From an uncultured Bacilli bacterium (GTDB taxonomy: Bacteria; Bacillota_I; Bacilli_A; RF39; UBA660): 36,907 bases of DNA. The number at the start of each line of letters is the position of its first letter. The stretch's first letter is position 1. The DNA lies in NCBI GenBank assembly GCA_944363925.1, contig CALVVS010000009.1:1-36907 (forward strand), given 5' to 3'. Under the pieces are notes generated by a model that was not told the DNA's origin, did no database searches, and worked only from the letters and a program-made list of their open reading frames with translations. A program made the translations under genes and the position numbers. Positions 25,996 to 26,308 of this stretch are shown here, piece after piece.

Positions 25996-26034
25996 GTCTC
26001 CGTAGCTCAGCTGGATAGAGCAACGCCCTTCTAA
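25996..26034 (+). pseudogene. 5' half of a tRNA-Arg (TCT), cut at the anticodon loop; left attachment site
   Basis: Acceptor 5' strand GTCTCCG, D arm and the anticodon loop CTTCTAA are clear, and 32 of 33 bases from 26003 match the intact tRNA-Arg at 26232. After the loop the sequence runs CGTTTGGTCTATCAAG and no T arm or matching acceptor strand follows. The break in the anticodon loop is a classic crossover site for tyrosine integrases. The missing 3' half should lie at the far end of the element, outside this window, unless it is the one in the tRNA at 26232. Confidence 0.8.
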
Positions 26035-26072
26035 GCGTTTGGTCTATCAAGAGTTATCAGTTGACAAAAGCA

Positions 26073-26101
26073 TTGTAATTACTACGATTTTGTGATATAA
26101 T
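26073..26101 (+). promoter_or_regulatory. Rightward promoter inside the left end of the element
   Basis: TTGTAA (26073-26078), 17-bp spacer, perfect TATAAT (26096-26101). It overlaps the end of the integrase-like tail on the other strand and points toward the tRNA-Arg at 26232, 130 bp away, across two palindromes. Confidence 0.5.
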
Positions 26102-26174
26102 CGTTAGTGTTGATTAAGAAATTAGTACCCATTTTAGTACCCACATTTCTTAAATTAATTAAAATTGATTTAAA
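26082..26174 (-). pseudogene. Possible C-terminal remnant of a tyrosine integrase
   Basis: A 30-codon frame on the minus strand, closed upstream by a TAG (26175-26177), ends NVGTKMGTNFLINTNDYITKS. GTK-x-GT tails like this occur at the C-terminus of some Firmicutes tyrosine integrases, and the stop lies about 48 bp from the proposed crossover, the normal position for int. The catalytic part (Arg, His, Tyr) is absent. Too short for certainty; the position is the stronger argument. Confidence 0.45.
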
Positions 26175-26194
26175 CTATTTTTAAATAGTTTAAA
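26169..26194. repeat. Perfect 26-bp palindrome
   Basis: TTTAAACTATTT (26169-26180) and AAATAGTTTAAA (26183-26194) are separated by 2 bp. It is either a protein-binding site near the attachment end or a hairpin that ends transcripts. Confidence 0.7.
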
Positions 26195-26198
26195 ATAA

Positions 26199-26225
26199 AT
26201 TTCTTACTAAATTTTAGTGAGAAAT
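26199..26225. repeat. Second inverted repeat before the intact tRNA-Arg
   Basis: ATTTCTTACTAAA (26199-26211) pairs with TTTAGTGAGAAAT (26213-26225) with one T-G pair. It ends 6 bp before the tRNA, so it leaves no room for a normal promoter directly upstream of that gene. Confidence 0.65.
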
Positions 26226-26231
26226 CCTTAT

Positions 26232-26308
26232 GTCCTAGTAGCTCAGCTGGATAGAGCATCGCCCTTCTAAGGCGAGAGTCAGGGGTTCGAATCCCTTCTG
26301 GGACGCCA
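26232..26308 (+). tRNA. tRNA-Arg (anticodon TCT), intact
   Basis: A full cloverleaf with CCA encoded. The acceptor stem GTCCTAG/CTGGGAC has one U-G pair; the anticodon stem TCGCC/GGCGA encloses CTTCTAA, giving TCT; the T arm is built around GTTCGAATC. It reads AGA and AGG, AGA being the main arginine codon of such AT-rich genomes. Both stems pair better with their own partners than the broken tRNA half would, suggesting the gene is one original unit. Confidence 0.95.

Follow-up and report, generated by a model that had tools for sequence, protein, structure and literature searches.

A mobile element has, in our reading, inserted into the host gene for tRNA-Arg(TCT), left that gene split and supplied a whole replacement tRNA, and we put the probability of this reading at about 90%. 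The window analysed here, a stretch of 36,907 nucleotides, is the entire contig C9 of MAG G000 (1.44 Mb, 111 contigs, 76% complete). A first-pass annotation of the window had noticed a split tRNA-Arg(TCT) with an intact copy farther inside, and had suggested that the element may supply a complete substitute tRNA and leave the lost half unrestored. The first observation was confirmed, with the 5' half at 25996-26027 and the intact tRNA at 26232-26308, and comparison with related genomes strongly supports the suggestion of a replacement through the foreign allele of the inner tRNA, orphan 3' halves in relatives and empty sites. These comparisons reveal the insertion, the split and unrestored halves, the 8-bp core and the foreign allele, and no second intact TCT tRNA was found in them. 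We propose that an integrative element, most likely conjugative, enters the anticodon loop of tRNA-Arg(TCT) by means of its own tyrosine integrase. The 8-bp core is too short to rebuild the host gene, which is left as a dead 5' half (25996-26035, core included) and a 3' half that adjoins the far end of the element. Carried just inside the left arm site, a whole tRNA-Arg(TCT) of another allele, with promoter- and terminator-like signals of its own, would then take over the reading of AGA codons.

All sites at the left junction are given on the plus strand. Upstream of the split gene, sequence reading identified a promoter-like site of the host tRNA gene, TTGTAT-17-TATAAT (25949-25977), whose -10 region TATAGTATAAT is kept in most relatives, with or without the element; its -35 is weak, and a promoter scan gave no call. 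The 5' half of the host tRNA, GTCTCCGTAGCTCAGCTGGATAGAGCAACGCC (25996-26027), was recognized by sequence reading and from intact orthologues, and neither ARAGORN nor Rfam called a gene there. It runs into the attachment core CTTCTAAG (26028-26035), which consists of the anticodon loop and one stem base and forms the left junction (attL). These 8 bp are the sole stretch common to attL, attR and the empty site within the genus, and non-tRNA sequence begins after the core at 26035. The tRNA-likeness of GCGTTTGGTC past the anticodon loop was considered as residual tRNA and rejected, GCGTTTGGTC being element sequence.

On the element side, the core is followed by a core arm, CGTTTGGTCTATCAA (26036-26050), a putative binding site to which TTGATAG...AAACGC at the right end corresponds as an inverted repeat, though imperfectly; the deduced attP reads TTGATAG-n-AAACGC-agttgaCTTCTAA-GCGTTT-gg-TCTATCAA. 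The direct repeat TAGTACCCATTTTAGTACCCAC (26123-26144), a putative arm-type integrase site, has a counterpart in relatives, where it lies 195 bp from the core at the right end. A reading of GTGGGTACTAAAATGGGTACT as the leftover C-terminus of an integrase was dropped in favor of an arm-type site, which fits better, because the relatives carry a full integrase at the other end and the same repeat lies on both sides of the core. The 5' half and the element arm together (25996-26050) form a long inverted repeat (GATAGAGCAACGC / GCGTTTGGTCTATC) with a folding z-score of -3.2. The integrase target may include the conserved D-arm part of tRNA-Arg.

The locus was located in relatives via the enolase gene, which lies at 23920-25164 in the window. 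One intact tRNA-Arg(TCT) stands near this gene in G002, G043, G023, G015 and G027, and in G027, G043 and G002 a single contig carries the intact tRNA together with both of its flanks, representing empty sites. The first-pass annotation had named tandem tRNA-Arg genes, or the intact tRNA in the same place with no orphan 3' half anywhere, as arrangements at odds with replacement; neither was encountered in the relatives, and those lacking the element have one intact gene and no tandem pair at the locus. The left junction, ...AACGCC/CTTCTAAG/CGTTTGGTCTATCAAG, was observed in the window's MAG (G000) and in G010, G014, G017, G029, G030, G031 and G038, and the arrangement is evidently not due to chance, because the same junction is found in seven further genomes of the genus. 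Of these, G030, G029 and G010 have contigs that reach the inner tRNA, and all three carry it, with a left end that is 96-97% identical. At the right junction, ...AAACGCAGTTGA/CTTCTAAG/GCGTGGGTC..., the element is followed by the tRNA 3' half in G010, G014, G017, G018, G029, G030, G031 and G038. The orphan 3' half starting at CTTCTAAG, which the first-pass annotation had proposed to look for, is thus present in eight congeners joined to element DNA. A search of the window's own MAG (76% complete) found no orphan 3' half, integrase or right end of the element, and the right end of the window's copy is presumably like that of its relatives. Overall, 9 of the 44 genomes of the genus carry at least one element end.

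The left module of the element extends to the end of the contig (26350-36907) and contains small minus-strand ORFs and genes for two HTH regulators, a thioester/SpaA surface protein, a sortase, a phage_rep_org_N protein (replisome organiser), a DNA methylase and an ArdC/M78-like protein. Positions 26921-36439 are 95% identical to the same position in G010. The thioester-domain protein with SpaA repeats and the sortase gene that follows it (30589-33700) are element cargo. The right-end contigs of relatives encode a 426-aa tyrosine integrase (PF00589 and PF14659), whose gene ends ~255 bp from the attR core, and a 105-aa excisionase-like protein (HTH_17/excise-like, under curated cut-offs). They also encode a VirD4 of the CD1115 family, over cut-off; a VirB4-like ATPase with the Mbov_0397 ICE family as its closest match (428.8 bits against a cut-off of 590); a pLS20_p028-like membrane protein and a pilin-like protein, both under cut-off; and an M23 peptidase, a primase-like protein and an SSB. 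Because the right-end contigs pair an integrase and an excisionase-like protein with VirD4, the VirB4-like ATPase and other T4SS proteins, that is, with a coupling protein and a type IV secretion system, the element is most likely an ICE.

Among the right-end proteins, Pfam and NCBIfam gave no match to a relaxase family, and a 481-aa protein with an HFH motif (L159:10956-12401) has no match in either collection. No phage structural genes were seen, and phage_rep_org_N is the sole phage-type family besides the integrase among the proteins searched. Exact scans of viral contigs for both element ends gave no match, and BLAST of the region against phages matched mainly phage tRNA genes. Integrase relatives in phage and plasmid records were <30% identical among the matches listed; distant relatives of the integrase (41-43%) were of no help to interpretation. 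One copy of the element, that of G014, bears a tetracycline-resistance-type gene in its right module: L168:4897-6819 (G014:C13), about 23 kb from attR, matches the TetM/TetW/TetO/TetS ribosomal protection family with a score over the cut-off of NCBIfam.

No contig spans the whole element, and the left and right contigs break inside it. Two contigs of G029 overlap by 77 bp, but this join was not accepted as evidence of a complete 13-kb element, since it lies inside a transposase-like gene (identified by reading of the translation; no Pfam family matched). The tRNA-bearing left module and the right module, which has the integrase and conjugation genes, might accordingly belong to two elements inserted in tandem at the same site, a reading in which the tRNA would still replace the split gene and the left element might not itself be conjugative. 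This is unlikely, in our estimation. It draws on the assembly breaks on both sides, which mean that the two modules are never on one contig, and on G036, in which a different island, of the ordinary restoring kind, sits in this gene. However, in seven genomes each of the two types of end, left and right, is present just once, similar arm repeats flank the core on both sides, as expected of a single attP, and no extra core junction was seen between the left and right ends.

The intact replacement tRNA-Arg(TCT) lies at 26232-26308 on the plus strand, starts 196 bp beyond the core and has an encoded CCA (ARAGORN; Rfam, 66.2 bits). Ahead of it on the same strand, a scan identified a putative promoter, TTGTAA-17-TATAAT with TG before the -10 (26073-26101, 10/12 matches), which is identical across five element copies from different species. 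A terminator-like hairpin with a T run past the tRNA (26323-26346, plus strand) was read by eye and is kept in four element copies; the automatic scan did not call it. The allele is a foreign one, from a different lineage. In G030 the inner tRNA is identical to the tRNA-Arg(TCT) of G049, a member of another genus, and the window's inner tRNA is 1 nt from it, whereas 10-13 nt separate the inner tRNA from the alleles of most of the genus, the occupied site included. Between element copies, a T-stem pair has changed from A-T to C-G on both sides, a compensatory change suggesting that the structure of the inner tRNA is maintained and that the element's tRNA is under selection. Within the window, AGA accounts for 61% of the Arg codons of 14 host genes; in element genes its share is 48-61%.

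The inner tRNA was seen in G000, G010, G029 and G030, and in these four genomes, the ones with the left end assembled far enough, it is the only intact TCT tRNA found; for the window's MAG this is the outcome of the gene count that the first-pass annotation had put forward as a check. The contigs of G014, G017, G031, G038 and G138 stop before the inner tRNA. A second intact TCT tRNA was found in none of the occupied genomes (MAGs 63-90% complete). Since any one of these MAGs could have missed such a gene, the inner tRNA might be mere cargo, with another TCT tRNA elsewhere sustaining the host. An inner tRNA-Arg(TCT) near similar arm repeats in G259, beside tRNA-Ile and accompanied by a separate intact TCT gene, gives some color to this idea. 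We consider it improbable nevertheless: nearly all empty genomes have a single TCT gene, the occupied genomes without a second one include G010 (89% complete), G030 (88%) and G014 (90%), and the compensatory T-stem change points to selection on the tRNA of the element. As a replacement, the element's tRNA would be expressed and aminoacylated, and the cell would presumably depend on it.

The two host halves, paired with each other, match at 7/7 acceptor and 5/5 anticodon-stem positions in the seven congeners that have both, and the same perfect pairing was seen in one genome of another genus. It holds despite differences between alleles, with GTCTCCA/TGGGGAC in G029 and GTCTCCT/AGGGGAC in G031, and we therefore conclude that the halves derive from one gene. 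In contrast, the host 5' half matches the 3' half of the element tRNA at 5-6/7 positions of the acceptor stem and 4/5 of the anticodon stem across seven genomes; for the window, the values are 6/7 and 4/5, which bears out the doubt that the first-pass annotation had drawn from imperfect pairing about its own alternative. That alternative, an old element shrunk to a 236-bp relic with the old 3' half now in the intact gene at 26232, has in its favor two CCTTCTAAG cores in direct orientation 236 bp apart, but it deserves almost no credence, as the true 3' half follows element DNA at the far end in eight congeners and, wherever a genome has both halves, is perfectly complementary to the 5' half in the stems, element genes extend rightward past 26308, and empty sites hold a single gene.

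Besides the genus of the window, the element was found in at least two hosts with other tRNA alleles. In G138, which belongs to a different genus, the allele flanked by attL and attR is GTCTGCG...AATCGC/GCGATCGG, which is intact in its congener G402, and in L181 (contig CALVXO010000017.1) the right end of the element lies in a host with the GGCAGCGG allele. The allele types seen as targets are GCGTGGG, GGCAGCGG and GCGATCGG. Judging from the insertions in G138 and L181, the target is therefore tRNA-Arg(TCT) across several genera, and its anticodon stem varies among them. An element that carries a whole tRNA would have no need to match the 3' half of its target, which would widen its host range; consistent with this, a hybrid of the G138 5' half and the element 3' half would pair at only 5/7 acceptor and 2/5 anticodon-stem positions. 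In G138 (G138:C60 and G138:C25; L115, L215), attL and attR share 17 bp (CTTCTAAGCGATCGGTC) rather than 8, and attL is still without a tRNA 3' half despite this longer shared stretch. Two bases past the core match the host there and differ from all other element copies, for which a variant attP or conversion after integration may be the cause.

Replacement of this kind has been described and tested in actinobacteriophages as tRNA-dependent lysogeny (Fionnbharth, cluster L; Guerrero-Bustamante and Hatfull 2024, PMC10865867). In those phages the cores are about 8-10 bp, the phage tRNAs complement and the need for the tRNA was tested; the authors cite Lj965 of Lactobacillus johnsonii and ask how widespread the mechanism is (PMC10865867). 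The element shares with them a tyrosine integrase, seen in relatives, with attB in a host tRNA gene, here tRNA-Arg(TCT), a core of similar length that does not rebuild a tRNA at attL or attR, and a tRNA, carried by the element together with signals of its own, that matches the isotype of the target. It differs in its conjugation genes, its uncultured Bacilli host and its tRNA-Arg(TCT) 196 bp from the core, and in that the requirement for the tRNA was tested in the phages, whereas here it is presumed, with the finding of no second TCT gene in occupied genomes as indirect evidence. As the right module has VirD4, VirB4-like and T4SS proteins, the carrier is not a temperate phage, and we therefore say that the system works like tRNA-dependent lysogeny, not that it is lysogeny. 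Lj965, as far as it is described in PMC10865867, likewise integrates without rebuilding the tRNA and encodes a cognate tRNA but, unlike the present element, is a prophage. In islands and ICEs of the ordinary tRNA-targeting kind, attP contains a matching fragment from which the gene is rebuilt (Islander, PMC4383910). The element resembles them in its tyrosine integrase, its anticodon-loop site (class A) and the split fragment at its far end, whereas its shared stretch is 8 bp, the sequence past the attL core is no tRNA 3' half and the gene stays broken.

The mechanism most likely matches known tRNA-dependent lysogeny, the probable conjugative carrier being what is new. No conjugative example of tRNA replacement was found in the open literature, a scope that leaves most subscription journals outside. 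We think it fairly likely that a conjugative element uses whole-tRNA replacement, enters TCT alleles of different genera and cannot be lost, other than by precise excision, without killing the cell. This suggests that replacing an essential tRNA gene is a strategy of conjugative elements as well as phages, and offers a reason for the presence on mobile elements of single tRNA genes of the same isotype as the target. Such elements may escape island finders that rely on a restored tRNA together with a long matching stretch. The comparison of alleles renders the host-range advantage testable.

Several related loci were observed. In G036 (L166 4214-10587, G036:C4) the same tRNA gene is the site of a 6.3-kb island that restores it in the ordinary way, with a repeat of about 48 bp or longer, and the TCT gene of G195 also holds an ordinary restoring island. 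In G263 (G263:C31; L173 / L217), arm repeats and a left end like those of the window adjoin an intact tRNA-Arg(TCT) with no inner tRNA, possibly a relative that predates the gain of the tRNA. In G259 (G259:C4; L218 / L172, about 11.85-12.3 kb), similar arm repeats and then a tRNA-Arg(TCT) adjoin a tRNA-Ile(GAT) that is intact; this may be a related cassette whose element uses a different target. Elsewhere in the window's MAG, four tandem tRNA-Asn(GTT) genes lie within 330 bp (G000:C36 458-783).
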